Shown one piece after another: positions 7,075 through 22,376 of a stretch of DNA of 40,310 nt. A model generated the notes under the pieces. It searched no databases and was not told the origin of the DNA. It was given only the letters and a program-made list of their open reading frames with translations. The stretch covers positions 1 to 40,310 of the forward strand of contig NZ_AWNK01000004.1 of NCBI RefSeq assembly GCF_000469585.1, written 5' to 3'. Made by a program: the position numbers and the translations under genes. Source of the stretch: Chrysiogenes arsenatis DSM 11915. Lineage in GTDB: Bacteria > Chrysiogenota > Chrysiogenetes > Chrysiogenales > Chrysiogenaceae. The number at the start of each line of letters is the position of its first letter. Within the stretch, counting starts at the first letter, position 1.

Positions 7075-7102
7075 CGTATACGCCTTGCAGCAGGAGCCAG
7101 AT

Positions 7103-8185
7103 ATGACCTTCAATCCACGCCGACCTTATAATGACCTGCCAGAATTACCACCGCATGTTGAGCTTGAAAGCAAGGCCGTTCTGAAAGCAGCAATTGGTGC
7201 AAACAGAGCGTTGGCGGAACTGAAAGGCGTCGGCGAACTGGTGCCAAATCAAGCCGTTCTGGTTCAATCAATTGGCCTACAAGAAGCAAAACTTTCATCT
7301 GAAATCGAAAATATCGTAACAACCAACGACGAACTCTATCGTGCTTTCGCCAACCATGGCGCAAAAGCTCATTTGCACACCAAAGAAGTACTGCGGTACC
7401 AAGAAGCACTCTGGCATGGATTCAGTGCCATCCGCCAGCACAACCGTCCATTAACCACCAACTTGTATGAAGAGCTGTTTCAAATCATCAAGCAAACCAC
7501 CGCTGGTGTGCGCAAAACTCCTGGAACAAAATTGACAAACAGCCAAGGCGACATCATTTACACGCCACCAGAAGGGGAAGCCGTACTGCGTCAGAAACTT
7601 GCTAACTTTGAAAAGTTCATCTACGCCGAAGATGGAGTCGACCCGCTGGTCAAACTCGCGGTAATCCACTACCAATTTGAAGCGATTCACCCTTTTACCG
7701 ATGGCAATGGGCGTACTGGGCGGATCATCAATATCCTTTACCTCATTGAGCACAATCTGCTGGAAATTCCTATTCTCTACCTAAGCCGTTATATTATCGA
7801 AAACAAAAACGACTACTACGCCGGACTCCGGGGGATTACTGAGCGCCAAGCGTGGGAAGACTGGATACTCTACCTTCTGCGTGGAGTAGAAATAACCGCT
7901 CAACAGACGCGCGCGAAAATCCTGTCAATCCGTGATCTGATGTTCGCAGACATGGAAACCGTGCGCACCCAGCTCCCAAAGGTATACAGCAAAGAACTGC
8001 TGGAATTGCTCTATCGGCAACCCTACTGCAAAATCCGCTTTCTAGAAGAAGCAGGTATTGCGCATCGGCAGACTGCTTCAAGCTATCTCAAAAGCCTAGA
8101 GCACATCGGCATTTTACGAGCGATCAAAGCGGGTCGCGAAGTGTACTACATCAATCAAAGGTTTCTGGATTTACTGAGCAAGTGA
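7103..8185 (+). CDS. Fic family protein (class II AMP-transferase) with C-terminal winged helix
   Basis: Fic proteins transfer AMP, or other nucleoside monophosphates, from NTPs onto hydroxyl side chains of target proteins. The catalytic loop HPFTDGNGRTGR begins at about residue 196, with the catalytic His, the phosphate-binding glycines and Arg all intact. An inhibitory helix motif of the form S-x-x-x-E-N (SSEIEN, about 65-70) precedes the core, which places it in class II, the self-inhibited type. The last 60-70 residues (CKIRFLEEAGIAHRQTASSYLKSL) form a winged-helix DNA-binding domain common in this family. The ATG at 7103 has AGGAG six bases upstream. The paired dyads in front suggest autoregulation. 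It lies next to rhuM, hsdS remnants and a KAP NTPase, an accessory setting. Confidence 0.92.
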   Translation: MTFNPRRPYNDLPELPPHVELESKAVLKAAIGANRALAELKGVGELVPNQAVLVQSIGLQEAKLSSEIENIVTTNDELYRAFANHGAKAHLHTKEVLRYQEALWHGFSAIRQHNRPLTTNLYEELFQIIKQTTAGVRKTPGTKLTNSQGDIIYTPPEGEAVLRQKLANFEKFIYAEDGVDPLVKLAVIHYQFEAIHPFTDGNGRTGRIINILYLIEHNLLEIPILYLSRYIIENKNDYYAGLRGITERQAWEDWILYLLRGVEITAQQTRAKILSIRDLMFADMETVRTQLPKVYSKELLELLYRQPYCKIRFLEEAGIAHRQTASSYLKSLEHIGILRAIKAGREVYYINQRFLDLLSK

Positions 8186-8278
8186 GTAGCCATATGGCAC
8201 GCGCCAAATAGCGGCTGTATAAACATCTCTGCTGTAAAATGACACGATATTGAGTAGAATAAAAAACGGAGGGCGGCG

Positions 8279-8326
8279 ATGAATGAAAGATACGTCTCAC
8301 ACGAAACCGCGAAGGATTTCGAATGA
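8279..8326 (+). CDS. 15-codon ORF coupled to rhuM (leader or remnant)
   Basis: ATG at 8279 follows a strong GGAGGG (8268-8273) at five-base spacing. The frame encodes MNERYVSHETAKDFE and its TGA overlaps the rhuM ATG as ATGA. It could be a leader that couples translation into rhuM, or the stub of a deleted upstream gene. There is no homology evidence. Confidence 0.35.
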   Translation: MNERYVSHETAKDFE

Positions 8327-9381
8327 GTAAGAAGAAAAAAACCGGCAAGGACGTCTCCATTGTCCGTTCTTCGGCAGCGGAATATCTGACCTTCGTTGCC
8401 GCCAGCGGCAGCGGTGGTGTCGAAGCGGTGTATGCCGACGAAAGCATCTGGCTGACCCAGAAGATGATGGGCGTGCTTTACGATGTTGAAACCCATACCA
8501 TCAACTACCACCTGAAAAAGGTTTTTTCAGACAGTGAGTTGCAGGAGGATTCAGTTATTCGAAATTTTCGAATAACTGCCGCAGACGGCAAAAACTACAA
8601 CACCTTGCACTACAAACTCCCCGCCATTATCGCCGTCGGCTACAAGGTCAACTCAGAGCGGGCCGTGCAGTTCCGCAAGTGGGCCACCACCATCATCGAT
8701 GAGTACACTATCAAGGCCTATGTGATGGACGATGAGCGCATCAAAAGCGGTGGCTCCATCCTGACCGAACAATACTTTGAAGAGCAACTGCAGCGCGTTC
8801 GGGAAATTCGACTCTCGGAACGCAGGTTCTACCAGAAGATCACCGACATCTACGTCACCGCCATCGACTACGACGTCACCGCCCAAGCCACCAAACGCTT
8901 TTTCGCTACAGTGCAAAACAAGTTACATTGGGCCATCCACGGCCAGACGGCGGCGGAGGTCATTGTCAACCGCGCCGATGCCGACAAGCCGCACATGGGC
9001 CTGACCACCTGGAAAGATGCTCCGCAAGGCAAAATCCAGAAATTCGATGTCAGCGTGGCAAAGAACTATCTGACCGAAGAGGAAATGGCGCAACTAGCCC
9101 GGCTGGTCAACGCCTATCTGGATGTGGCCGAAAGCATGGCGCAGCGCAAAATCCCCATGACCATGCAGGACTGGGAAACCCGCCTGAACAAATTCATCGA
9201 AGCTACCGACCGCGAGATTCTACAGGACGCCGGTAAGGTTACAGCAGAGATCGCCAAAGCCCACGCCGAAAGCGAGTTCGAGAAGTACCGCATTGTGCAG
9301 GATCAGTTGTTTGAAAGCGACTTCGACCGAATGCTGAAGCAGATCGGCACGCTACAGAAACCGGGGAGCGGCGATGAATAA
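8323..9381 (+). CDS. rhuM: RhuM family protein
   Basis: This 352-residue protein has the features of the RhuM family, named from a Salmonella pathogenicity-island gene. The N-terminal part (ESIWLTQKMMGVLYDVETHTI) looks like a DNA-binding element similar to those of phage antirepressor-like proteins, and is followed by the conserved LPAIIAVGYKVNSERAVQFRKWA block. The C-terminal half contains the family segments ATKRFFATVQNKLHWA and PMTMQDWETRLNKF. The molecular function is not established. RhuM genes often sit inside or beside type I restriction loci, and here the stop codon overlaps the start of an hsdS fragment (ATGAATAA). AAGGAT in front of the ATG is a modest ribosome site. Confidence 0.88.
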   Translation: MSKKKKTGKDVSIVRSSAAEYLTFVAASGSGGVEAVYADESIWLTQKMMGVLYDVETHTINYHLKKVFSDSELQEDSVIRNFRITAADGKNYNTLHYKLPAIIAVGYKVNSERAVQFRKWATTIIDEYTIKAYVMDDERIKSGGSILTEQYFEEQLQRVREIRLSERRFYQKITDIYVTAIDYDVTAQATKRFFATVQNKLHWAIHGQTAAEVIVNRADADKPHMGLTTWKDAPQGKIQKFDVSVAKNYLTEEEMAQLARLVNAYLDVAESMAQRKIPMTMQDWETRLNKFIEATDREILQDAGKVTAEIAKAHAESEFEKYRIVQDQLFESDFDRMLKQIGTLQKPGSGDE

Positions 9382-9655
9382 GCAAACCGCACAACTGTTG
9401 GAAAAGCACTTCGACACCGCATTTACTGCACCCGACGGCATCGCCAAATTGCGTGAACTGATCCTGACCCTCGCCATGCAAGGGAAACTGGTGGAGCAAA
9501 ACCCGAATGATCCGCCAGCTTCAGAGTTGCTTCGGGAGATTGAGCGGGAAAGAGCCTCACGCGAAGGCACGAAGGCGCGAAGGCGCCAGGGGAATTCGAA
9601 GAGAATAATTCCCCTCCTTTGGAGGGGTGGCAGGCGCAGCCTGACGGGGTGGTGA
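9374..9655 (+). pseudogene. hsdS: N-terminal fragment of type I restriction specificity subunit (hsdS)
   Basis: The first 60 or so residues (HFDTAFTAPDGIAKLRELI, LAMQGKLVEQNPNDPPASEL) are the conserved start of HsdS proteins, which provide target recognition for type I restriction-modification complexes. The frame then leaves the family and reads through a dispersed repeat (GTKARRRQGNS...), ending at 9655. Both target recognition domains are absent, so this cannot act as a normal specificity subunit. The start overlaps the rhuM stop, as expected for a former rhuM-hsdS operon. Confidence 0.8.
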
Positions 9656-9660
9656 CTCCA
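9552..9660. repeat. dispersed intergenic repeat inserted in hsdS
   Basis: There are two parts. One is a short quasi-tandem stretch built on GCGAAGG (about 9558-9590). The other is a hairpin-forming element with stem CCCCTCC/GGAGGGG (9611-9617 and 9621-9627), continuing to GACGGGGTGGT. Sequences of this second style occur as dispersed non-coding repeats in many bacterial genomes. Here the repeat interrupts hsdS. Confidence 0.6.
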
Positions 9661-9670
9661 AGGAACAACG

Positions 9671-9796
9671 ACGAATAAACGAACTTTCGAGTTGCTAGAA
9701 CAGCACTTCGACACCGCCTTTGCCGCGCCCGACGGCATCGCCAAATTGCGTGAACTGATCCTGACCTTCGCCATGCAGGAAAATTGCGTGAGTTGA
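9671..9796 (+). pseudogene. second hsdS N-terminal fragment, start codon lost
   Basis: This is a diverged copy of the first fragment. Codons from 9674 read NKRTFELLEQHFDTAFAAPD, then continue KLRELILTFAMQ and hit TGA at 9794-9796. The position of the start codon is ACG instead of ATG. The DNA of 9690-9779 matches 9398-9482 closely. A third short match, AAATTGCGTGAGTTGATG, follows at 9781. Confidence 0.7.
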
Positions 9797-9828
9797 TGCT
9801 TAAGAAGGAGGTTGGCAAGGCGGTTTAG

Positions 9829-10135
9829 ACGTGTGAAGTTCGGGCACTGGCAACGAGGAAGGACAAAGCAATTGACGTCGGACAGTACTGTTTGTTGAAA
9901 TTGAGATCTTGCAGCATGGCCGTGTGCATTGTAATCTTCTCATTACTTGGTAACGAGACGCAATAGCCCCGCCACTATCTGTTACCGAAAACGGTAACTT
10001 TACAACCTGGTTTTTTTGATACTTAGCGACTGCCTCCAACAATGCCAAGCTCTGCGACATCATTCTATTCCAGATTCAGCTTAACTTCAAAGTCGTGTGT
10101 ATGAGCGGCATTACCCCACAGAAGGGAAAATCAGT
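9829..10135. other. non-coding stretch before the KAP NTPase gene
   Basis: No convincing gene is present. A perfect 7-base-pair hairpin, GTTACCG/CGGTAAC (9981-9987 and 9992-9998), could be an operator. An 87-codon minus-strand frame at 9800-10063 crosses it, but I recognise no family in it. A 12-codon frame (10101-10139) overlaps the KAP start codon as ATGA but lacks a ribosome site. Confidence 0.45.
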
Positions 10136-12301
10136 ATGACAAATCATGCAAACTACTCATCAGATGCGCCAATATCGAGCCCGGATAAGGATAGATTCTC
10201 CAGATGGCCTTTTTCCAAACGGATCTCCGAGGTCATCGCTAAAAAGAGTGATCCAAGTAGCATCGTGATCGGATTATATGGGGCTTGGGGTGATGGTAAA
10301 ACTACAGTTCTGAACTTCATAGAAGAAGCATTAAAAACCGAATCAAATGTAATATGCATCAGGTTTAATCCTTGGCGATATGGCACAGAAGAACAATTAC
10401 TGGAAGGATTTTTTCATAACATTGCCGATGCCCTTGACACAAAACTCATAACTTCAGGTGAGAAAGTAAAGGACATCATCAAAAAAGTTGCACCGGCAGC
10501 TGCCGGTGCACTTGGCCAAAAGGGGATAGGCGATGGGGTTGCTCAATTTATGGCTGGTCCATCCTTAAATGAACTCAGGTCTAGAATAGAAACAACATTG
10601 GAAGAAGCTAAAAAAAGGGTCGTGATATTAGCCGACGATATCGACCGGTTGGAAAAAGAGGAAATTCACGCAACATTTAGACTGGTAAAGCTGACAGCCG
10701 ACTTTAAATTTACTTCATATATACTGGCATTTGATGAGCAAGTGGTTTCATCAGCTTTACAAGATAGATATGGTGCCGGGGTTGAGAACGCAGGAAAAGC
10801 GTTTCTTGAAAAAATTATTCAGGTGCCACTGAATTTGCCGTCTGTCGATAGGAAGATTTTAAGAGGTTTTTGTTTTGAAGGTGTCGACAGTGCTCTCACT
10901 TTAGCTGAAATAAAGTTAACGGAACAGCAAGCTCAAGAATTTGCAAGAAACTTTACGGCTGCTTTTGACAAAAGACTAAAAACACCAAGAAAAGCCCGGA
11001 TGTATGGCAATATTTTATTGTTCTCGTTGCCTATTCTTAAAGGAGAGACAAATCCAGTAGATGTCATGTTGATAGAAGGTGTGAGAGTATTCTTTCCTAA
11101 AGTGTATGAGGTAATCAAAAAAAATGCGGAGATGTTCACCGGTAGCGTAAGAGATTCGTATAGTAGTAACCGCGATAAAGAAAAATCACTTACTATAGCC
11201 ACCATTGAAGGGTCAATAGATTCGTCAGACCCAGAAGAAATCGATGGGATATTAAGCCTATTAAAATCCATGTTCCCTAAGCTTGAAGCAGTGTACGGAA
11301 ACACACACCACGGGAGAGATTGGGAACAAAGCTGGTCGGATGCACAGAGGATATGCTCTCCTTCTTATTTTCAAAGATATTTCGCATATGCGGTTCCCGA
11401 GGATGATATCTCAGACCAGACCATTCAAAACCTGATCGAAGTTTCATCAAAAGATGATCTCGCTGAGACCGCAAAAGTATTCGATCAATTATTAACGACG
11501 CAAAATGCAGATAGGCTCATCCGGAAACTACGCTCAAAAGCAAAATCCATTTCACGAGAATCATCTATGACATTGGCAGAAGTTCTTCTGCTGCATTCAG
11601 ATCGATTCCCTAATCCAGAAAATTTATTCAACTTCAATAATCCATTTGCTCAAGCCGCAATGCTTGTTAGTGGTCTAATTCAGAATATCTCTGATAAAGG
11701 TGAAAGAATATCTTTATCTCAGCTCTGCATCAGAACAGCACCAGACATTGAATTCTCAGTGGAAATTTTTCGATGGTTACGAGTGAAGGATAAAGATCGA
11801 CCAGAAATAGACGGTTTTACCGAAGATGAAATAAGTGCCATTGGCAAAATTTTAGCCGAGCGAATTAAATCGATTCTGGAGAGTGATGTAGATATCACAA
11901 CAGTCTATCCTAAAATATGCGACCGCTTATTGTATCAAGTTAAAAAATACATCGGCAAATCAGAAGTCGAAGAATATCTCGCCAGCATCTTCAAAACCAG
12001 TGAACAATCTGTTTTCAGGTTCTTAGACACCTTCACTCCAACGGCCTGGGGGATGGAATCCGGGATCTCACGTAAGTCAGACCTCGAAAGAGAGCAGTAT
12101 AATTCAATAGTTGGCTTAATTGACCCTGAAAGTATTCTCTCAGCAATAACCCATGAAATAGGTCAACTACCCTCTGTTTCAATCGAATATCCAGGAGACG
12201 ATAAAGATAGAAACCAATTACTTGCAAACCAATTTCTTTGGCTACACGACTATGTCCTTAAAGAGCAGGCGAAAACTGATGCTGAAAATGACCAACAGTA
12301 A
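10136..12301 (+). CDS. KAP family P-loop NTPase
   Basis: This 721-residue protein has a Walker A motif GAWGDGKTT near residue 50, the family signature FNPWRYG about 30 residues later, and Walker B ILADDIDRLEKEE near 165. Together these define the KAP NTPases, the group that includes the F-plasmid phage-exclusion protein PifA. The segment between the Walker motifs has only a short Ala/Gly-rich hydrophobic stretch and no clear paired membrane helices, so this looks like a soluble member. The long C-terminal half is unassigned. The ATG at 10136 follows AAGGG at eight bases. The gene is visibly more AT-rich than everything around it, suggesting horizontal acquisition. A defence role is inferred from family and context. 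Confidence 0.85.
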   Translation: MTNHANYSSDAPISSPDKDRFSRWPFSKRISEVIAKKSDPSSIVIGLYGAWGDGKTTVLNFIEEALKTESNVICIRFNPWRYGTEEQLLEGFFHNIADALDTKLITSGEKVKDIIKKVAPAAAGALGQKGIGDGVAQFMAGPSLNELRSRIETTLEEAKKRVVILADDIDRLEKEEIHATFRLVKLTADFKFTSYILAFDEQVVSSALQDRYGAGVENAGKAFLEKIIQVPLNLPSVDRKILRGFCFEGVDSALTLAEIKLTEQQAQEFARNFTAAFDKRLKTPRKARMYGNILLFSLPILKGETNPVDVMLIEGVRVFFPKVYEVIKKNAEMFTGSVRDSYSSNRDKEKSLTIATIEGSIDSSDPEEIDGILSLLKSMFPKLEAVYGNTHHGRDWEQSWSDAQRICSPSYFQRYFAYAVPEDDISDQTIQNLIEVSSKDDLAETAKVFDQLLTTQNADRLIRKLRSKAKSISRESSMTLAEVLLLHSDRFPNPENLFNFNNPFAQAAMLVSGLIQNISDKGERISLSQLCIRTAPDIEFSVEIFRWLRVKDKDRPEIDGFTEDEISAIGKILAERIKSILESDVDITTVYPKICDRLLYQVKKYIGKSEVEEYLASIFKTSEQSVFRFLDTFTPTAWGMESGISRKSDLEREQYNSIVGLIDPESILSAITHEIGQLPSVSIEYPGDDKDRNQLLANQFLWLHDYVLKEQAKTDAENDQQ

Positions 12302-12387: not shown

Positions 12388-14256
12388 ATGTGTGGCATCA
12401 CGGGAATTTTTGATCGACACCAACGCGAACGAATCGACGCAAACGCGCTCCGCGCTATGACCTCCGCCCTACTCCATCGTGGGCCGGATGACGTCGGTTT
12501 TCACCAAGAAAAAAACCTGGGACTCGGCTTTCGTCGTCTCGCTATTGTCGATTTAGTCGGCGGCAACCAACCGCTCTACAACGAAGATCGCTCACTGGTG
12601 CTGATTTGTAATGGCGAAATCTTTAACTTCCGTGAATTGCGCGCTGGTTTAGAACAGCGCGGCCATCGCTTTACTACCAACACGGACGTCGAAGTCATCC
12701 TGCACCTGTACGAAGAAGAAGGGGTCGCTTTCATCCCGCGCCTGAACGGCCAATTTGCGTTTGCACTCTATGACACCACGCAGCGCCGCGTACTGCTGGC
12801 GCGCGATCATGTTGGGATAGCGCCGCTTTTTTATACCGATCAAGACGGGCTTTTCCTTTTCGCCTCAGAAATCAAGGGACTCTTGCAACATCCCAGCGTC
12901 AAGCGCGAAGTCGATCTCACTGGCCTTGATCAAGTCTTTGCCTTCCCCGGCTGTCTCGCCCCACGCACCATGTTTCGCCACATTCGCAGCCTGCAAGCGG
13001 GCCATTATATGCTGGTGGGAAAAGACGGTATGAGCGAGCACCAATACTGGGATATGCACTACCCGCGCGAAAGGGAAATTGCCTATCAGGATGAAAACCA
13101 TTATCTGGAACGACTGGACGAAGCCCTGCAAAATGCTGTCAAGCTCCGCCTGCTCGGCGATGTTCCCGTCGGCTATTACCTTTCTGGTGGGCTTGATTCT
13201 TCGATGATTGCCGGAATTTTACATACCTTGATTCCCGACGAACGACGCCATTCCTTTTCGATAGGCTTTACCCAGCCAGAAATTGACGAAACGCACTTTC
13301 AACGGATGATGGCCGCCCATGTTGGCTCCATCCACCATGAATCCCGCTTTGACTGGCCACAGATCAGCGAAGGCTTCCGTACTATGATTCGCCATGCCGA
13401 AAGTCCACTGCGCGAAAGTTACGACACCTGTTCCATTGCACTATCGCGCGCGGTGCGGGAAGCGGGGATGAAAGTGGTGCTGATTGGCGAAGGGGCGGAT
13501 GAGCTTTTTGCTGGTTACTACGGATATAAGTTTGACCGCCAGCGGCAAGAGTTAGGCGATGACGACCCCTTTGACCCCGAAGCGCTGCTGGAAAAAGAGT
13601 TGCGACAAGAGCTGTGGGGCGATGAATCCTTTATTTACGAAAAAAATCTCTACCAGTTTCAGGGCGTGCGCGAAGCACTCTACTCCAGCCGCGCGCTGGA
13701 GCAGTTCCATGAATTCAATGCTGTGCGCGCGGGGGTGGTTGATACCCGCAAGCTCGTTGGGCGTCACCCCGTTCATCGCCGCGCCTATATTGATTTAAAG
13801 TTGCGCCTCGCCTCGCATTTATTGTCCGATCATGGCGACCGCGCGGCCTTTGCCAATTCGGTGGAAGCGCGTTACCCATTTCTGGATATCAACGTACTGA
13901 ACCTCGTCCGTGAAATTCCTCCTGACCTTAAACTCCACGGCTTAACCGAAAAATATCTCCTGAAACGGCTTGGCGAAAGGTATATCCCCGCGCCCATTCG
14001 CGAACGGCAAAAATTTGGTTTTGTCGCCCCCGGCAGCCCATATTTGCTTGGGCAATCGCTGGAATGGGTGCAGGATACCCTTTCGCGCAGCACGATTGAG
14101 CGACAAGGGTTTTTTAATCCCGATGTCGTCGAACGGCTGATAGCTCAGTACCGTTCACCCGGATTTCAACTCAATGTGCCGTATGAAGATGATTTATTGA
14201 TGATCGTCCTGAGTTTTGGCATATTTATGGATGAGTTTGCGATGCCTGCGTTGTGA
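12388..14256 (+). CDS. asnB: glutamine-dependent asparagine synthetase-like amidotransferase (AsnB family)
   Basis: These enzymes transfer ammonia from glutamine to an AMP-activated carboxylate. Cys2 (MCGITGIF) is the class II glutaminase nucleophile. The N-terminal domain runs to about residue 200 and includes HRGPDD and ICNGEIFNF. The synthetase domain has the ATP-binding loop SGGLDSS at about 266 and GEGADELFAGY near 370. The region HAESPLRESYDTCS in the second domain differs from housekeeping AsnB and resembles the versions found in secondary-metabolite clusters. CGGAG precedes the ATG by seven bases. Only 29 bases separate it from the NRPS gene in the same direction, so it probably amidates a carboxyl group of the peptide or a precursor. 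Ordinary asparagine synthesis remains possible. Confidence 0.88.
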   Translation: MCGITGIFDRHQRERIDANALRAMTSALLHRGPDDVGFHQEKNLGLGFRRLAIVDLVGGNQPLYNEDRSLVLICNGEIFNFRELRAGLEQRGHRFTTNTDVEVILHLYEEEGVAFIPRLNGQFAFALYDTTQRRVLLARDHVGIAPLFYTDQDGLFLFASEIKGLLQHPSVKREVDLTGLDQVFAFPGCLAPRTMFRHIRSLQAGHYMLVGKDGMSEHQYWDMHYPREREIAYQDENHYLERLDEALQNAVKLRLLGDVPVGYYLSGGLDSSMIAGILHTLIPDERRHSFSIGFTQPEIDETHFQRMMAAHVGSIHHESRFDWPQISEGFRTMIRHAESPLRESYDTCSIALSRAVREAGMKVVLIGEGADELFAGYYGYKFDRQRQELGDDDPFDPEALLEKELRQELWGDESFIYEKNLYQFQGVREALYSSRALEQFHEFNAVRAGVVDTRKLVGRHPVHRRAYIDLKLRLASHLLSDHGDRAAFANSVEARYPFLDINVLNLVREIPPDLKLHGLTEKYLLKRLGERYIPAPIRERQKFGFVAPGSPYLLGQSLEWVQDTLSRSTIERQGFFNPDVVERLIAQYRSPGFQLNVPYEDDLLMIVLSFGIFMDEFAMPAL

Positions 14257-14285
14257 GTGCATCGAGTACCATGATGGGGTGAGTG

Positions 14286-17200
14286 ATGAATCGAAAAATC
14301 GTCCACAGCGTCTTTGAGCATATCGCAGCCACATTTCCCGAACATCACGCCATCGAAGAAAGCTCCGGCGCCTCTATCACCTACCGCCAACTCAACAAGC
14401 GCGCTCATGCCATAGCTTCGCTTCTGGTTGCACGCGGCGTTGGCCGCAACGTGCTGGTCGGCGTCTTGTTTCCAACTGGCATCACGTATGCCGCCACCAT
14501 CCTTGGTGTCCTTAAAGCAGGTGGTCTCTTTCTGCCGCTGGAACTTGGTTTACCGCGTCCGCGCTTACAACACATCCTGAGCCACACCACGCCATCGGTC
14601 ATTGTCACCGACGTCCACGGACAAAACGGCCTCGCCGATATGCTGGTCGAATTTGGCCTCGCCACATCAACCATCCTCTTGGTGTTCACCGCAGCGGGGT
14701 TTCATGAACAGCGCTTTTGCGATGGACACTGGCAAACCACAGCAATTGCGGACGCAGAAGCAACCGATCCGCTCCCCATGATCAATGAACCCGACGATAG
14801 CTGTTATGTTATCTACACGTCTGGTTCAACGGGCGTTCCAAAATTCATTGAAGGGTGGCACAAAGGGTTAGCGCACTACTGCCATTGGCAGGCCACAGAA
14901 TTTGGCTTGAACGAAACCTCGCGCATCAGCCAAATGGCGCCGGTTACGTTTGAAGCGAGTCTCAAAGACTTTTTTGTGGCGCTCTGCTGTGGCGCAACCC
15001 TGTGCATTCCCGCCGCCGACGTGAAAGAAAACCCTGCACGGCTGATTGAGTGGATTGAATCATCGGCGCTGACGCTGCTGCAAACGGTTCCATCCTATTT
15101 GCGCCTCATAACGCGGGAAGCCGCTTCACAAGCGCGTAGCGGAGGATTTTTTCCCAGCTTGCAACTCGTCTTTCAGTCAGGCGATACGCTCTACGGCAAA
15201 GACGTCAATCACTGGCGGCACGTCATCGGCACCCACGCCGAATTGGTCAACCTCTACGGCCCCGCCGAAGTGACTTTGCTCAAAACATTCCACCGCATCC
15301 CGCCAGAACCGCTCAAACCCAATGAAATCGTCCCCATCGGCAAGCCAATCACAAATACCGTCATTTTAATCCTGAGCGGCCACACCCTGTGCCCGCCGGG
15401 AAAAATCGGCGAAATAGCGGTCAAATCACCCTTTATCGTCAAAGGATACTACCGCTCGCCGGAACTTACCGCCGAAAAATTTGTCCAAAACCCTCTGCAG
15501 AATGAAACGCGGGATATTGTCTACCGCACGGGCGATTTAGGACGCTATCGCCCCGACATGACCATCGACTTTGTTGGCCGTCTCGATAGTCAGGTAAAAG
15601 TGTATGGCAACCGGATCGAGCTGGCTGAAATCGAAAGCGTGCTCCTCGCCATGCCGCAGATTGGTCAGGCGGTCGTAGTGCCGCACCGCACCGATGAAAT
15701 GGAAAACGTGCTCGCCTGCTACTACACCGAACTGGAACCCATCAGCCACACCGCGCTCCGCGAACATATACTGGCCTCACTCCCAGACTATATGGTTCCC
15801 GCCTATTTTATTCCGATGGCCAGCTTACCTTTAAGCTTAAATGGCAAAGTTGACCGCAAAGCGTTGCCCAAACCGGAAGTACTGGTCATCGGCAGCTACG
15901 AAGCACCGGTCGGCACCACCGAAATACAGTTAGCCGAAATTTGGGGCGAAATCCTTGGACTCAAACGGATTGGGCGCGCCAACCCCTTTATGGAAATTGG
16001 CGGGGACTCGCTGAAAGCGATTCGCATTATCGCCCGTATGTACAAAGTGTTCAGCGTTGAAGTCAGCGTACGCGACTTTTTTGCTTCGCCCACCATTGGC
16101 GCACTCGCTACGTTTATTGACCGTGCGCGCCACACACACTATGAGCCGATTCCGGCGCTGCCTGACGCTGCAAGCTATCCCCTTTCGCATGCCCAAAGGC
16201 GGCTTTGGATGCTCGACCAGATGGAAAAAGGCTCTGCCGCCTACACGATGGCCTCCGCCTTTGTGATCGAAGGTTCCTTCTCACTCGCAGCCTTTACACA
16301 GGCGATCCACACGCTGCATCAGCGGCATGAAACCCTGCGCACCACCTTCATCGCCATCGATGGCGTTCCGCGTCAAAAAATTGAAACATCCCTTGCGCCG
16401 GATGTCACCGTGCGCGATGTTAGCCACACTCCCGACCCCGAACACACGGCGCGTGAATACTTTACCACCGAAGCGGCTCGCCCTTTTGACCTCACAACGG
16501 GGCCGCTCTACCGCATTGCACTGCTGACTTTGGCACCACAACGCACCGCCTTCGTCTTTTCGATTCATCATATCATCAGCGATGTTTGGTCGTTGGGAGT
16601 GATGACGGCGGAGCTTTCAACCCTCTATAATGGGTTTAGCACTGGCCAAACACCGCACTTGCCGCCGCTGCCGATCCAGTATCGCGATTTCGCCGCCTGG
16701 CAAAACCAAAAAGTAAACGATCCCGCCACGTTGCAGCGCGACCGCACCTACTGGTTGCAGCAACTCGCCGCACCATTGCCGGTGCTCGACCTTCCCGCCG
16801 ATTTCCCGCGCCCTCCCGTCAAAACCTATGCCGGAGCTGTGGTTCGCTTCACACTTGATCCTGCTATTGCGCAACCACTGCGCGCGCTGGCAACGGCGCA
16901 GGGAGCCAGTCTGTTTGCCCTGCTGCTCGCACTGGTGCGGGTACTCATGTTCCGCTACACGGCGCAAGAAGATCTGATTATCGGCACACCGGTCGCGGGG
17001 AGAGTGCATCCCGACCTTGAGCCACAAATCGGCTTTTTCCTGAATACGCTGGCATTGCGCGATCAGGTGCGGGCGGATGATCGCTTCTGCGATCTGCTCA
17101 CGCGTGTCATGGCGACGAATACATCAGGCTTCGACCACCAAAACTATCCGTTTGATCAACTCGTCGATGAGCTGGAGTTGCCGCGCGATGTCAGCCGTTC

Positions 17201-20200
17201 ACCACTTTTTGACCTGATGGTCGTACTGCAAAATACGGGGCAAATTCCATTTACCCTCGACGGAGCTACCGTGCGCGAATTGGCGCAGATGGAAAATATC
17301 AGCAAGTTTGATCTCGATTTTGTCTTTCAGGAAAACGATGACACCATTGATGTTATTGTGGAATACAACCGTGACCTGTTCGTGCCGCAACGGATTCACA
17401 ACATGGCTCACCATTTCTGCATGCTGGCCGAAGGGGTGGTCGTCAATCCGACCGCGCGCGTCAGCGATTTGCCACTGTTAACAACCGCCGAACTCCAGTG
17501 GATTCATCACGATTTCAACGCCACCGCGGCACCGTGGCCGCAACAGGCCACGCTGGTATCGCTCTTTACCGAACAGGTGCAGCGCACACCCAATACAATA
17601 GCGGTACGTTTTGAGGATCAACACCTGAGTTACGCTGACTTGCAACGCGAAGCCGAGCGCATCGCCGCGCTGCTGCAACAATACCGCATCGAGACGGGGA
17701 GCATAGTTGCGATTCTCGCCGAACCGGCGCTGCACATGCCTGCATGGTTACTGGGCATCCTGCACGCTGGTTGCACGTATCTGCCGATCGACCCGACGTA
17801 CCCCGCCGAGCGAATCCGCTTTATGCTCGAAGATTCCCACGCGGCACTGGTTTTGACGCAAGGCCATCTGCTGGCAACCCACTCCGCCATCGCCTTGCAA
17901 GGGATTACGGCAGAAGCGATCATCGAACGCACCGCACCGCGCGCCCAAATCCTTGACGTAGACGCTCTTCCCGTCGTCAATCGCGCCTTAATCGACCATA
18001 CGCGCTACCACCGTTTTATCGGGCAGTCGATGGTCAAACACGCTGTGGCAATTCAGGCCACACGTGGCTGTCCCTACCAGTGCGCCTACTGCCACCAAAT
18101 TTGGCCACGTAACCACGTCTACCGTTCGGCGGAAAATATCTTTGCCGAAGTCCAAGCACTCTACCAACTTGGAGTGCGCCGCTTTGTGTTTATCGACGAT
18201 ATTTTTAACCTCAACCGTGACAATAGCCGCCGATTTTTCGAGCTGATTCTGGAGCACAGTTTGCAGCTTCAAATCCACTTTCCCAACGGCTTACGCGGCG
18301 ACTTGCTGACGCCAGACTACATCGACCTCATGGTGGCTGCCGGAACGGTAAGCTTTGCGCTGGCGCTGGAAACGGCGTCACCACGCCTACAAACAATGAT
18401 CGGGAAAAATCTCAACCTCGACCGCTTCCGCGACACATTGCAGTACATTACCACGCACCATCCGCAGGTTATCTTAGAGCTGTTCACCATGCACGGTTTC
18501 CCCAGCGAAACCGAAGCCGAAGCGCTGGCAACGCTGGAATTCATGCAGTCCATCAACTGGCTCCATTTTCCCTATGTGCATATTCTCAAGATTTTCCCCG
18601 GCTCCGCTATGGAACAACTGGCGCTCGACAACGGCATTGATGGCTCAGCGATTCGCCGTTCACACTCCCTTGCGTTCCACGAATTACCGGAAACGCTCCC
18701 CTTTGATGCCGCCTTTACCAAGCAGTACCAATCGGAATTTTTCCAAGGGTATTTCTTAAACCGCGAACGACTCCGCCACGTACTGCCGCACCAAATGCGC
18801 GTGTTAACCGAAGATGAGCTGGTACAGAAATACAATAGTTATTTGCCGCTGGAAATTCACAGTTTTGCGCAACTGCTGGAGTTTTTCGGTATCCCACACC
18901 ATGAACTGGGCGACGCCCAGTTTTTACAGGAAGATTCTGTCGCCGTCCCTGAGCTTTCGCATCGCTTTTATGACCGTTTTCCGCGCCCAGCCGTGCCGGA
19001 AAAAGGCGCATTGCGCATTGTGCTGCTCGACCTTTCGCAACTGTTCAGCGAACACGCTTCACTGTTTTACGACGTGGTCGAACCGCCACTGGGTCTTATG
19101 TCGCTCCTCAGTTATCTGCAGCAACAATTCGGCAGTCACATCGATGGACGGATTGCTAAAGCGCGAATTGATTTCGATTCTTTTGCCGAACTCCGTCAAT
19201 TGCTTGATGAAACCAAACCTGAACTGATCGGCATTCGTACCTTGTCGCTCTATCAGGAGTTTTTCCACGAAACAGTGGCGCTGCTCCGCCAGTGGGGGAT
19301 AGAAGTGCCAATTATTGCCGGTGGGCCGTATGCCACCAGCAGCGTCGCGCACGTCCTCCAAAACCGCGCGGTCGACCTTGTGGTGATCGGCGAAGGGGAG
19401 GCAACACTCGCCGAACTCGTGGGGATGATGCTGCGCCACGAACACCGTCTACCGGACGAGGCACACCTGCGCGCACTCCCCGGCATTGCCTTTGTGCCGC
19501 GCGCAGCGCAAAAGCAAGCGTACGCAGGTACGCGGCCATTGGTGCGACTGGAGCCAGAACACTCCCCCACGCCAAATAATTGTGTCGTTCATCCGCCACA
19601 GCTTGACCCTTCCGCTGCCGCCTATCTGCTCTACACTTCCGGCTCAACCGGTACACCCAAAGGGGTGCTGGTTGAACACCGCAACGTGGTGCGACTCCTG
19701 TTTAACGACCGGATGCCCTTTGACTTTTCTTCCCGCGATGTCTGGGTGCAGTCGCATTCATTCTGCTTCGATTTTTCCGTCTGGGAAATGTACGGCGCGT
19801 TGCTCCGCGGTGGCACGCTGGTGATCCCAAAACGGGACGAGGTGCGCGACATCGCCCGTTACGTGACACTTGTCAAAAACAGTGGCGTGACGGTGCTCAA
19901 TCAAACTCCAGCCGCCTTTTACGGATTTATTGACGAAGCCTTGCGCACCGATTTCGACTGGAGTTCGTCGCTCCGCTACGTGATTTTTGGTGGCGACCGA
20001 CTCGAACCGACCTATCTACGCCGCTGGGCGGAGCGCTTTCCGTCCGTAGCCCTCATCAATATGTATGGTATTACCGAAACCACCGTGCACGTCACGTTTC
20101 ACCAATTATCGCTGGAGGAGCTTGCGATTGCGGGGAAAAGCCCTATCGGCACACCCATTCCCGAAACCACCGTGTATGTTTGCGACGCTTCAATGAATCT

Positions 20201-22376
20201 CCTGCCCGTCGGCATTCCCGGCGAGTTCTACGTCGGCGGCAGCGGGGTCAGCCGTGGTTACCTGAATCGTCCAGAACTCCAAAACCAGCGTTTTATTACC
20301 AATCCATTTGGAACTGGGAAACTCTACCGCACTGGCGATCTCGGGCGTTGGACATGGACAGGCGGACTGGAGTACCTTGGCCGCAATGACCAGCAAGTGC
20401 AAATCCGTGGCTTCCGCGTGGAACTTGGCGAAATCGAAAGCCGCCTGCTTGCTCATCCCGCCATCCGTGAATGTGTGGTACTGGCATTAACTGGTGCCAA
20501 CGACACATTGGCGCTGGCCGCATGGCTGGTGTTTGAACACGAGGTCACCATCGCCGCACTGCGCGACCACCTAGCGCAAACTTTGGCTGATTACATGATT
20601 CCAGCGTGGTTTACACCCATCGATGCGCTGCCATTGACAGCGAATGGCAAGCTTGACCGCCGTGCCCTCCCCGATCCACGAGAAGCACATGCCCCCAGCC
20701 TCGATTTAGGCACCACGCTTGTCGCCCCACGCAATGACACCGAACAGATTGTGGCAACGGTATGGGAAGGGGTGCTTGGCCTTAGCGCTATCGGCATTCA
20801 CGACAACTACTTTGCCCTCGGTGGCGATTCGATTCGCGCGATTCAGGTCATCTCCCGCTTACAGCAGCAGGGATGGCAGGCGGAAATGATTGACGTGTTT
20901 CAATTCCCCACCGTGGCGGGACTGGCAAGCCGCATTACGCCGTACGAGCGGGTGATCGACCAAAAGCCGGTGACAGGCAATGTCACCCTCAGCCCCGTGC
21001 AACGCTGGTTCTTCGAAACACATGGCGCGGGAGTGCACCATTACAATCAATCGATTCTGCTCACCTCACGGGAACGGTTGGATGGAACAAAGCTGCGCAC
21101 GCTCTTGTCAGCCTTGGTCGCGCATCATGACATGCTCCGCACCGCGTTCACCCAGAGCATCGATGGTTGGCGTCAAACCATTCAGCCAATCGGCACGCCG
21201 CTCCGTTTTGAAATCGTCGATTTCACTCGCACAACACATCCCGCGCAGGCCTTAGAGCAACATGCCGCAGCGTTACAAGCAAGTTTTGATATCGCGCAAC
21301 CACCGCTGCTTACCGCCGCCCTTTACCAACTACCGGACGGCGACCGTCTGTGCATAATCATCCATCATTTGGTGGTAGATGGTGTTTCGTGGCGTATTCT
21401 GGCAGAAGATGTCGTGACCGGATATCGTCAACTGGTCGCCGGAAAACCACTAGCACTGACACCGAAAAGTGATTCTTTTGCCGCGTGGATGGTGGCCTTA
21501 CAAACCTACGCGACGAGTGATACGCTGCAGCGCGAACGCTCGTATTGGCAGCATATATCCGAGCGTGCGACGACTATCGCGCCACTTCCTTTTGGCACCG
21601 CAACCCCAACCGCCGTGGCCGCAGATTTTGATGATATCGCGCATACGCTACCCCCCGCGCTCACCGATCAACTGCTGCGTCACGCCAATCGCGCCTACGC
21701 CACCGATGCGGTTGACCTCCTGCTCACCGCAACGGCGCTCGCCCTCACCGATTGGAGTGGTTCGCGATGTCACCTGATTACCTTAGAAGGTCATGGACGT
21801 GAGGAAATTGGAGTGAAGCTCGATGTCTCGCGCACCGTGGGCTGGTTTACCACGCTCTTTCCGCACCTGCTGGAGGTTTCTGAACGCGACGATAGTGGCT
21901 ACCGCGTGCGTGTCGTCAAAGAAGGGATGCGTGCCATACCCCATCACGGGATTGGCTACGGCGTCCTGCGTTGGCTCACACCAAATGCCGCGCACGATGC
22001 AACGTTACCATCACTGCCGCGCATCAGCTTTAATTACTTGGGGGTGTTTGACGCCACCGTCGATGATGGCGCATGGACGCTTTCCGACGAACCACACGGC
22101 TCAACCGTCGGCGGCGATAATATCAGCCCTTTTGATCTGGAAATCACCGGTGCGGTGGTGGGCGAGGTGCTCCGCATAGCATTGCGCTATAACCGTCATG
22201 CGCTGGAAGAAAAAGTTGCCAAAAGGCTGCTGCAACAGCTTGTAAGCCATCTGCAAGAGATTATCGCGCATTGTTGTCAGGTCGAAACGACGGTGATCAC
22301 GCCGAGCGATATTAGCTACGACGGTCTTGATATTGATCAGCTCGACACGCTGCTGGAGAGTTTGGGGGATTCGTGA
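14286..22376 (+). CDS. two-module NRPS with radical SAM-B12 insertion in the second adenylation domain
   Basis: This 2,696-residue synthetase has the order A1 (about 5-530), PCP1 (Ser575 in GGDSL), C (about 630-1070), A2 (starting about 1085), PCP2 (Ser2182 in GGDSI) and E (about 2230-2650). A1 has an altered A3 motif, SGSTGVPKFIEG. The condensation active site is HHIISDV (761-767), with Val replacing the usual Gly. A2 is interrupted after its LHAGCTYLPIDPTYP motif by a radical SAM domain (Cys1262, 1266 and 1269) and a cobalamin-binding-like domain, then resumes at YTSGSTGTPKG near 1785. A2 pocket residues read DFWNIGMVH plus the A10 lysine, the classical threonine code. E has HHLVVDG (2360-2366), EGHGRE and DVSRTVGWF. 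No initiating C or thioesterase is present. The C-terminal tail (TPSDISYDGLDIDQLDTLL) resembles a donor docking segment. The ATG at 14286 follows GGGGTGAG. Confidence 0.93.
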   Translation: MNRKIVHSVFEHIAATFPEHHAIEESSGASITYRQLNKRAHAIASLLVARGVGRNVLVGVLFPTGITYAATILGVLKAGGLFLPLELGLPRPRLQHILSHTTPSVIVTDVHGQNGLADMLVEFGLATSTILLVFTAAGFHEQRFCDGHWQTTAIADAEATDPLPMINEPDDSCYVIYTSGSTGVPKFIEGWHKGLAHYCHWQATEFGLNETSRISQMAPVTFEASLKDFFVALCCGATLCIPAADVKENPARLIEWIESSALTLLQTVPSYLRLITREAASQARSGGFFPSLQLVFQSGDTLYGKDVNHWRHVIGTHAELVNLYGPAEVTLLKTFHRIPPEPLKPNEIVPIGKPITNTVILILSGHTLCPPGKIGEIAVKSPFIVKGYYRSPELTAEKFVQNPLQNETRDIVYRTGDLGRYRPDMTIDFVGRLDSQVKVYGNRIELAEIESVLLAMPQIGQAVVVPHRTDEMENVLACYYTELEPISHTALREHILASLPDYMVPAYFIPMASLPLSLNGKVDRKALPKPEVLVIGSYEAPVGTTEIQLAEIWGEILGLKRIGRANPFMEIGGDSLKAIRIIARMYKVFSVEVSVRDFFASPTIGALATFIDRARHTHYEPIPALPDAASYPLSHAQRRLWMLDQMEKGSAAYTMASAFVIEGSFSLAAFTQAIHTLHQRHETLRTTFIAIDGVPRQKIETSLAPDVTVRDVSHTPDPEHTAREYFTTEAARPFDLTTGPLYRIALLTLAPQRTAFVFSIHHIISDVWSLGVMTAELSTLYNGFSTGQTPHLPPLPIQYRDFAAWQNQKVNDPATLQRDRTYWLQQLAAPLPVLDLPADFPRPPVKTYAGAVVRFTLDPAIAQPLRALATAQGASLFALLLALVRVLMFRYTAQEDLIIGTPVAGRVHPDLEPQIGFFLNTLALRDQVRADDRFCDLLTRVMATNTSGFDHQNYPFDQLVDELELPRDVSRSPLFDLMVVLQNTGQIPFTLDGATVRELAQMENISKFDLDFVFQENDDTIDVIVEYNRDLFVPQRIHNMAHHFCMLAEGVVVNPTARVSDLPLLTTAELQWIHHDFNATAAPWPQQATLVSLFTEQVQRTPNTIAVRFEDQHLSYADLQREAERIAALLQQYRIETGSIVAILAEPALHMPAWLLGILHAGCTYLPIDPTYPAERIRFMLEDSHAALVLTQGHLLATHSAIALQGITAEAIIERTAPRAQILDVDALPVVNRALIDHTRYHRFIGQSMVKHAVAIQATRGCPYQCAYCHQIWPRNHVYRSAENIFAEVQALYQLGVRRFVFIDDIFNLNRDNSRRFFELILEHSLQLQIHFPNGLRGDLLTPDYIDLMVAAGTVSFALALETASPRLQTMIGKNLNLDRFRDTLQYITTHHPQVILELFTMHGFPSETEAEALATLEFMQSINWLHFPYVHILKIFPGSAMEQLALDNGIDGSAIRRSHSLAFHELPETLPFDAAFTKQYQSEFFQGYFLNRERLRHVLPHQMRVLTEDELVQKYNSYLPLEIHSFAQLLEFFGIPHHELGDAQFLQEDSVAVPELSHRFYDRFPRPAVPEKGALRIVLLDLSQLFSEHASLFYDVVEPPLGLMSLLSYLQQQFGSHIDGRIAKARIDFDSFAELRQLLDETKPELIGIRTLSLYQEFFHETVALLRQWGIEVPIIAGGPYATSSVAHVLQNRAVDLVVIGEGEATLAELVGMMLRHEHRLPDEAHLRALPGIAFVPRAAQKQAYAGTRPLVRLEPEHSPTPNNCVVHPPQLDPSAAAYLLYTSGSTGTPKGVLVEHRNVVRLLFNDRMPFDFSSRDVWVQSHSFCFDFSVWEMYGALLRGGTLVIPKRDEVRDIARYVTLVKNSGVTVLNQTPAAFYGFIDEALRTDFDWSSSLRYVIFGGDRLEPTYLRRWAERFPSVALINMYGITETTVHVTFHQLSLEELAIAGKSPIGTPIPETTVYVCDASMNLLPVGIPGEFYVGGSGVSRGYLNRPELQNQRFITNPFGTGKLYRTGDLGRWTWTGGLEYLGRNDQQVQIRGFRVELGEIESRLLAHPAIRECVVLALTGANDTLALAAWLVFEHEVTIAALRDHLAQTLADYMIPAWFTPIDALPLTANGKLDRRALPDPREAHAPSLDLGTTLVAPRNDTEQIVATVWEGVLGLSAIGIHDNYFALGGDSIRAIQVISRLQQQGWQAEMIDVFQFPTVAGLASRITPYERVIDQKPVTGNVTLSPVQRWFFETHGAGVHHYNQSILLTSRERLDGTKLRTLLSALVAHHDMLRTAFTQSIDGWRQTIQPIGTPLRFEIVDFTRTTHPAQALEQHAAALQASFDIAQPPLLTAALYQLPDGDRLCIIIHHLVVDGVSWRILAEDVVTGYRQLVAGKPLALTPKSDSFAAWMVALQTYATSDTLQRERSYWQHISERATTIAPLPFGTATPTAVAADFDDIAHTLPPALTDQLLRHANRAYATDAVDLLLTATALALTDWSGSRCHLITLEGHGREEIGVKLDVSRTVGWFTTLFPHLLEVSERDDSGYRVRVVKEGMRAIPHHGIGYGVLRWLTPNAAHDATLPSLPRISFNYLGVFDATVDDGAWTLSDEPHGSTVGGDNISPFDLEITGAVVGEVLRIALRYNRHALEEKVAKRLLQQLVSHLQEIIAHCCQVETTVITPSDISYDGLDIDQLDTLLESLGDS
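17900..19575 (+). other. radical SAM plus B12-binding insertion inside the NRPS
   Basis: This is a sub-region of the NRPS gene, in frame with it. The first half has CPYQCAYC for the 4Fe-4S cluster (codons 18069-18092), then RRFVFIDDIFNLNRDN and LALETASPRLQ, the usual strand motifs of a radical SAM barrel. The second half (from about 19009) has EPPLGLMSLLSYL, IIAGGPYATS and VVIGEGEATLAEL, the pattern of the N-terminal cobalamin-binding domain of B12-type radical SAM enzymes. Class members of this type mostly methylate unactivated carbon or phosphorus, or catalyse ring changes. The activity here is unknown. Confidence 0.88.

Follow-up and report, generated by a model that had tools for sequence, protein, structure and literature searches.

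The window analysed here, a stretch of 40,310 nucleotides of Chrysiogenes arsenatis DSM 11915, belongs to a draft genome of 2.83 Mb in 22 contigs and contains a non-ribosomal peptide synthetase (NRPS) gene whose second adenylation (A) domain is interrupted by a radical SAM (rSAM) core and a B12-binding domain. It is preceded, at a distance of 26 bases, by an asparagine-synthase-like gene with which it likely shares an operon. Pfam recognizes condensation, AMP-binding (in three stretches) and PP-binding domains on the synthetase, together with one Radical_SAM and one B12-binding match; a domain reading of its 2697 residues reveals no thioesterase domain. The features are:

12388..14256, + strand: asparagine-synthase-like glutamine amidotransferase (asnB-like) gene (TIGR01536, 467.7 bits against a cut-off of 267.1; PF00733, PF13537)
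14283..22376, + strand: NRPS gene, 2697 aa, A1-T1-C-A2[rSAM-B12]-T2-E, a single ORF without internal stop
14289..15872, + strand: A1 adenylation domain (Pfam), with the unusual code EAKQFSLLLK, read by alignment
15927..16118, + strand: T1 carrier domain (PF00550, aa 549-612)
16173..17498, + strand: C condensation domain (domain search)
17538..17897, + strand: N-terminal half of A2, delimited by motif positions and homology edge, with motifs a1 (from 17625) and a2 (AGCTYLPIDP, from 17766)
17898..19580, + strand: the insert, a circularly permuted, putatively cobalamin-binding radical SAM unit (Pfam, profiles, alignments)
18054..18542, + strand: Radical_SAM core PF04055 (Pfam), with CxxxCxxC at 18069-18092 (CPYQCAYC, from 18069)
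19080..19421, + strand: B12-binding domain PF02310 (Pfam), C-terminal to the rSAM core, with GGPYATS from 19320 and GEGEATL from 19389
19581..20672, + strand: C-terminal part of A2, motifs a3 (SGSTGTPKG, from 19638) to a10, code DFWNIGMVHK by alignment
20703..20927, + strand: T2 carrier domain (Pfam)
20958..22322, + strand: E (epimerization-type condensation) domain, with motifs HHLVVDGVSW, EGHGR and NYLG
22299..22373, + strand: C-terminal tail TPSDISYDGLDIDQLDTLLESLGDS, COM-donor-like by sequence likeness and so interpreted here

In the A1 code a Glu replaces the amine-binding Asp235, and for this reason the starter unit may be something other than an ordinary α-amino acid. The synthetase is adjoined by a segment (7085-12301) that holds Fic-like and RhuM-like genes, assigned by eye, and a KAP-NTPase gene; G+C drops to 39-42% at 10-12 kb within this segment, which looks like a mobile or defence element.

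Homology of A2 to other A domains stops near aa 1205 (nt 17897) and restarts near aa 1767 (nt 19581), with about 560 extra residues standing in frame between motifs a2 and a3. Both domains of the insert are matched above the curated Pfam cut-offs, the Radical_SAM core at aa 1258-1420 (E 2.8e-17) and the B12-binding domain at aa 1600-1713 (E 5.4e-11, 42.8 bits against a cut-off of 32.1), and both lie in the one open frame of 2697 residues. The sequence-only reading, which had described radical SAM and B12 motifs within an A2 domain intact on both sides, is thereby confirmed, with a1 and a2 upstream and a3 to a10 and an intact code downstream; the edges it gave, 17900-19575, fall within a few bases of the homology limits (~17898-19580). 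Its description of a complete B12/rSAM unit holds as well, but it overlooked that the order of the two domains is swapped. The code DFWNIGMVHK we take to be the exact textbook code for Thr, and A2 is predicted to be an A domain for this residue.

An interrupted A domain is expected to show core motifs a1-a10 on both sides of an in-frame insert, an established insertion site (a2-a3 or a8-a9) and a fold that accommodates the insert. A2 has the motifs and the first of these sites, and its AlphaFold2 model folds around the insert. Superposed on the uninterrupted A domains 4d4i, 4d56 and 4d4g, the model of A2 with its insert (pLDDT 82, pTM 0.77; 11 sequences) gives TM scores, by target length, of 0.86-0.87 (0.87 for 4d4i and 4d56) in alignments of 1034-1036 columns that run across the insert, and suggests that A2 would still fold around it; an A domain unable to close, which the sequence-only reading had named as a ground for doubt, is not what the model indicates. 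The insert modelled by itself (17 sequences) reaches pLDDT 90.2 and pTM 0.90, and its B12 region is built of five strands.

Sequence comparison shows the insert to be a circularly permuted version of the usual B12/rSAM enzyme, with the rSAM core first and a canonical B12 domain second. The B12 domain is N-terminal in all of the ordinary B12/radical SAM proteins compared. Against a Roseibium protein, residues 406-526 of the insert align to target positions 30-151 and residues 33-259 to positions 181-409; the same swapped order is seen with every other target in which both domains matched, and the ApyD profile of NCBIfam is matched first at positions 164-389 and then at 2-159. Because protein and profile matches alike swap order, the permutation cut lies in the linker between the B12 and rSAM domains, with the former ends joined. 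The new N and C termini should then be adjacent, as nesting in a loop demands. A chance likeness of the B12 domain was considered and rejected, given a PF02310 match over its cut-off, the NCBIfam profiles and the protein alignments.

The profiles closest to the insert are those of B12/rSAM enzymes, including ApyD, PhpK, BzaD and the KedN5-type methyltransferases, and its PDB matches by sequence and fold include MgmA, TsrM, OxsB and AprD4, with AprD4 best on both counts and MgmA (9ccb) second by sequence. Foldseek also matches MetH-type cobalamin proteins, and BchE is among the related matches; since this method follows chain order and can superpose a permuted chain only part by part, it backs the rSAM part and the B12-type folds only separately. 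In terms of the two recognized classes, the insert resembles class 1 in its CxxxCxxC-bearing core (PF04055) and in its B12 domain, a canonical Rossmann fold that carries GGP and GEGE (PF02310), but the order is reversed, the class 1 B12 domain being N-terminal to the core. With class 2 (Mmp10 and DUF512 proteins) it shares a C-terminal B12 domain, but not its DUF512-like, four-stranded form: the insert has no DUF512 match and has five strands in the model. Membership of class 2 was rejected on these grounds.

The insert belongs to a family of at least 67 distinct copies, the one in the window included, the 66 others being 40-60% identical to it over its length; a scan of contigs recovered it at no fewer than 17 loci, with 40-56% identity. 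One Ca. Aminicenantes genome holds 34 insert matches and another 19, with more genomes of that class represented, and further copies occur in Ca. Aminicenantes, Acidobacteria, Halothermothrix and Ruminiclostridium metagenome-assembled genomes (MAGs) and in Desulfosediminicola flagellatus, whose genome is complete. MAGs are the source of most copies, and specificity codes were read by alignment throughout. The distribution is sporadic: a single genome carries the insert among 345 from the D. flagellatus phylum, a single one among 300 from that of Halothermothrix and a single one among 321 from the class of the gammaproteobacterial MAG described below. Fifty other genomes of the window's own phylum gave no relative of the insert and only generic rSAM matches. 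No match was found on viral contigs with a single-sequence scan, those found there with a two-row profile were no closer than ordinary B12/rSAM enzymes, and plasmids and phages yielded only ordinary rSAM proteins.

An A-domain N-terminal half lies directly upstream, at the a2-a3 position, in 58 of the 67 copies (57 besides the window); the downstream code is readable in 49 of these, while three are truncated and six lie at contig ends. Where it could be measured (51 cases), the boundaries are the same, with 560-598 residues between the A halves. The sequence-only reading had proposed looking for other A domains with a radical SAM insertion at this point, and had counted an absence of relatives, or an assembly join at either edge, against itself; relatives are plentiful, and the join is not borne out. 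That the window locus is an assembly or chimeric artefact is scarcely credible to us: it does come from a single draft genome of 22 contigs, but the same layout recurs in the complete D. flagellatus genome (L108/L270) and in many independent MAGs, at the same point in all 51 measurable cases, and an assembly join was rejected on the strength of these relatives. In D. flagellatus the interrupted module, C-A[ins]-T-E, forms one subunit of a multi-protein NRPS operon (L270:4878-19499), and its A code is DVQNLGMVDK.

Some A domains of the family are interrupted twice. Those with the code DPWY[IF]GT[IV]NK (L240:3062-9091:-, aa 1480-1840; L253:2667-8591:-, aa 1440-1795; L254, L265, L267) have, besides the rSAM-B12 unit at a2-a3, another domain at a8-a9, some 330-360 aa long. 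This second domain has CxxCG, YPG and CNVC motifs and gives the impression of a PP-loop (WbpG-like) amidotransferase. An N-methyltransferase had first been guessed for the second gaps of the DPWYIGTINK domains; the one copy searched had no Pfam match. The A domain at L249:2-4876:- (aa 1105-1475) is doubly interrupted as well, and its a8-a9 insert is a methyltransferase of the class I SAM type that weakly matches PRMT5.

In a further eight copies the insert stands between a complete A domain and its T domain (L104:1-13929:+, aa 3054-4025; L217, L230, L243, L248, L255, L261, L262), the A code being CVQ[YF][IV]AHVVK, a Pro-like code with Cys in place of Asp235. Some of these modules sit beside a decayed second a1-a2 segment, as might be expected were the insert a non-catalytic relic or structural spacer, and one copy (L231) lacks CxxxCxxC. 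We hold this explanation to be very improbable. CxxxCxxC is kept in 66 of the 67 copies, GGP[YH] in all 67 and GEGE in 63, and in the A-insert-T modules it is the surrounding A domain that has decayed around an intact insert, the opposite of a decaying insert. dN/dS is ~0.07-0.13 in the two close insert pairs on which the estimate rests, other pairs being saturated at synonymous sites; on this sequence measure, the inserts are under purifying selection. The remaining copy is free-standing, a protein of 574 aa (L113:9923-11644, + strand) in a gammaproteobacterial MAG; by eye, its neighbours include aminotransferase and acyl-activating genes.

Quick trees were used to follow the history of the family. 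With ordinary-order relatives included, all permuted sequences fall together (support 100), and within them the embedded ones make up one subgroup (96), to which the free-standing copy is sister. This topology fits a single permutation followed by a single insertion; an alternative history is that the free copy arose by an early excision. On a tree of the A-domain cores, on the other hand, the interrupted state takes 27 changes, at least 12 of them forced by well-supported branches. Recombination has thus repeatedly brought inserts together with new substrate-selecting cores. On the tree of the 67 inserts the A code changes 30 times, compared with 51.5 when codes are shuffled, and none of 200 shuffles was as low. 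Pro, VMN, PWY and CVQ types are largely grouped, while Thr, Ile and Asn types are scattered and intermixed. Because inserts cluster by A code, those of Pro type being largely grouped, the insert probably senses the loaded residue; because the Thr, Ile and Asn inserts intermix, it would be only partly tuned to it. Among the codes of the interrupted A domains we read seven each as Thr, Ile and Pro, five as Glu-like, three as Asn, two as Leu and one as Val; further codes, that of D. flagellatus among them, fall outside these assignments. The sequence-only reading had offered threonine as an example substrate. The A2 code predicts just that, but the chemistry is not specific to Thr, the other host codes being Pro, Ile, Glu, Asn, Leu and Val; a Thr-specific enzyme was rejected because the family is attached to A domains of many codes.

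What reaction, then, would suit such a range of residues? The embedded domain is, in our judgement, probably a cobalamin-dependent rSAM side-chain C-methyltransferase that acts on the residue held by the adjacent carrier domain; C-methylation, which the sequence-only reading had given as an example, is thus still preferred. Most host residues have neither OH nor SH in the side chain, and the amine of Pro is secondary, which makes methylation at carbon the reaction most naturally shared by them all; O- or S-methylation is excluded for most hosts by the Pro, Ile, Leu and Val codes. The host genome encodes CobS of cobalamin synthesis. Most rSAM enzymes that depend on cobalamin are methyltransferases (PMC11659888, PMC13331322), the trans-acting B12/rSAM enzyme DscE C-methylates an NRPS peptide in vitro at Val (PMC12858407), and in known A-M-A domains methylation comes after loading on T (PMC11355689).

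The strongest PDB match, by sequence and by fold, points elsewhere. AprD4 keeps a B12-like domain yet is a radical SAM diol dehydratase, and to our knowledge it works without cobalamin; OxsB and BchE, which also match the insert, show that B12/rSAM enzymes do other chemistry too, and rSAM reactions as a whole are diverse. The intermixing of Thr, Ile and Asn inserts and the copy without CxxxCxxC also weigh against the favoured reading. One may thus imagine a radical enzyme of another type, B12-dependent or merely B12-domain-containing, that performs desaturation, dehydration, ring formation or rearrangement on the tethered residue. We regard this as unlikely, since the cobalamin-dependent members are predominantly methyltransferases, the Pro, Val, Leu and Ile hosts offer no hydroxyl to dehydrate, and the B12 motifs are well kept across copies.

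Among methyltransferases, the α-carbon is the simplest position common to all of the codes, and MgmA, the second PDB match by sequence, is reported to make 2-methylglutamine from a glutamine (PMC11796369). MgmA-like α-methylation nevertheless seems quite improbable for this family. An E domain, with intact motifs in the window, follows the interrupted module in eight copies, the window's included, and epimerization requires an α-hydrogen, which should therefore survive the insert's action; the side chain is for this reason the likelier target. Side-chain recognition is also suggested by the Pro-module inserts, which mostly form a branch of their own. An rSAM epimerase is unlikely as well, with an E domain following in eight modules and a B12 domain present.

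For side-chain C-methylation in the window, A2 would activate L-threonine and load it onto T2. A first SAM would make methylcobalamin in the embedded domain, and a second, reductively cleaved at the [4Fe-4S] cluster, would give the 5'-deoxyadenosyl radical. This radical would take a side-chain hydrogen from the tethered residue, and the resultant carbon radical would accept the methyl group of methylcobalamin. The modified Thr would be β-hydroxyvaline or β-hydroxynorvaline, the α-carbon of which the E domain would then turn to D. The dipeptide would probably be handed over in trans. Another contig of the same genome, C1, encodes a C-A-T-C-A-T-TE synthetase (L268:7704-14747:-) that starts with a C domain and ends in a thioesterase; its start, NVKNIYPLTPLQEGILFH, is COM-acceptor-like, as the window NRPS end, TPSDISYDGLDIDQLDTLLESLGDS, is COM-donor-like. 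This COM-like tail on one protein and head on the other suggest a split assembly line in which the window NRPS passes its dipeptide to that of C1. The product is likely a four-residue peptide, X-D-(modified Thr)-Gly-Y, the Gly presumably specified by the code DILQLGVIWK.

On balance we favour the view that these proteins constitute a family not described before, of cobalamin/radical SAM C-H methyltransferases that are built into the assembly line and act in cis. Circular permutation would have made them fit for insertion into a loop, and recombination would have joined them, in anaerobic bacteria, to A domains with seven or more predicted specificities. If this is true, nature has a modular route to C-methylating chosen residues during non-ribosomal synthesis. 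Interrupted A domains are valued as bifunctional engineering parts. The nested enzymes known to us perform N-, O- or S-methylation, oxidation, reduction or Asn dehydration/isomerization; a nested B12/radical SAM unit would bring the C-H functionalization of unactivated carbons into the module and couple it to the residue that has just been loaded there. A new B12/rSAM domain order comes with the family, and so does a testable idea of the reason for it: a linker cut gives adjacent termini, and these are needed for insertion into a loop. The hosts are, we presume, mostly anaerobic, which would explain why a radical enzyme has not been met within the NRPSs of classical aerobic producers. As D. 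flagellatus is a named strain with a complete genome, its product should be reachable.

The open-access literature searched yielded no report of a radical SAM insert in an A domain, nor of a permuted B12/rSAM enzyme. Like the class 1 enzymes (TsrM, TokK and OxsB, and those of MgmA, ApyD and PhpK type), the window unit has an rSAM core, a canonical PF02310 domain and a five-stranded B12 region in its model, whereas those enzymes are free and of ordinary order and the window unit is reversed and embedded in another domain. Class 2 shares the position of the B12 domain C-terminal to the rSAM core (PMC13331322, PMC11659888), but that domain is dissimilar and four-stranded there. According to a review of December 2025, Mmp10 is the sole characterized enzyme with a C-terminal cobalamin domain (PMC13331322), and this domain is of the four-stranded kind (PMC13331322, PMC11659888). 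In discodermin biosynthesis, DscE offers a precedent for a B12/radical SAM enzyme that C-methylates a non-ribosomal peptide (PMC12858407), although it is a separate protein and was shown to act once the peptide is complete, while the window enzyme is part of its synthetase. The AMDH domain of CysH, from the cystobactamid synthetase, is likewise a non-methyltransferase tailoring domain within an A domain, with homologues tied to substrate (PMC7966384).

The closest architectural parallels are TioN and MarQ, whose methyltransferases document a2-a3 as an interruption site (PMC11355689). Here, too, a catalytic domain lies in frame between a2 and a3, the A core motifs are retained, and the residue that this A domain loads is the probable substrate of the inserted domain. 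The sequence-only reading knew of no characterized synthetase with the layout of the window; the site has in fact been described, and it is the cargo and the domain order that are, provisionally, apparently new. The cargo of TioN and MarQ is a SAM-dependent S-methyltransferase, whereas that of the window, about 560 aa long, combines a B12 and a radical SAM domain, from which one would expect carbon rather than sulfur chemistry.
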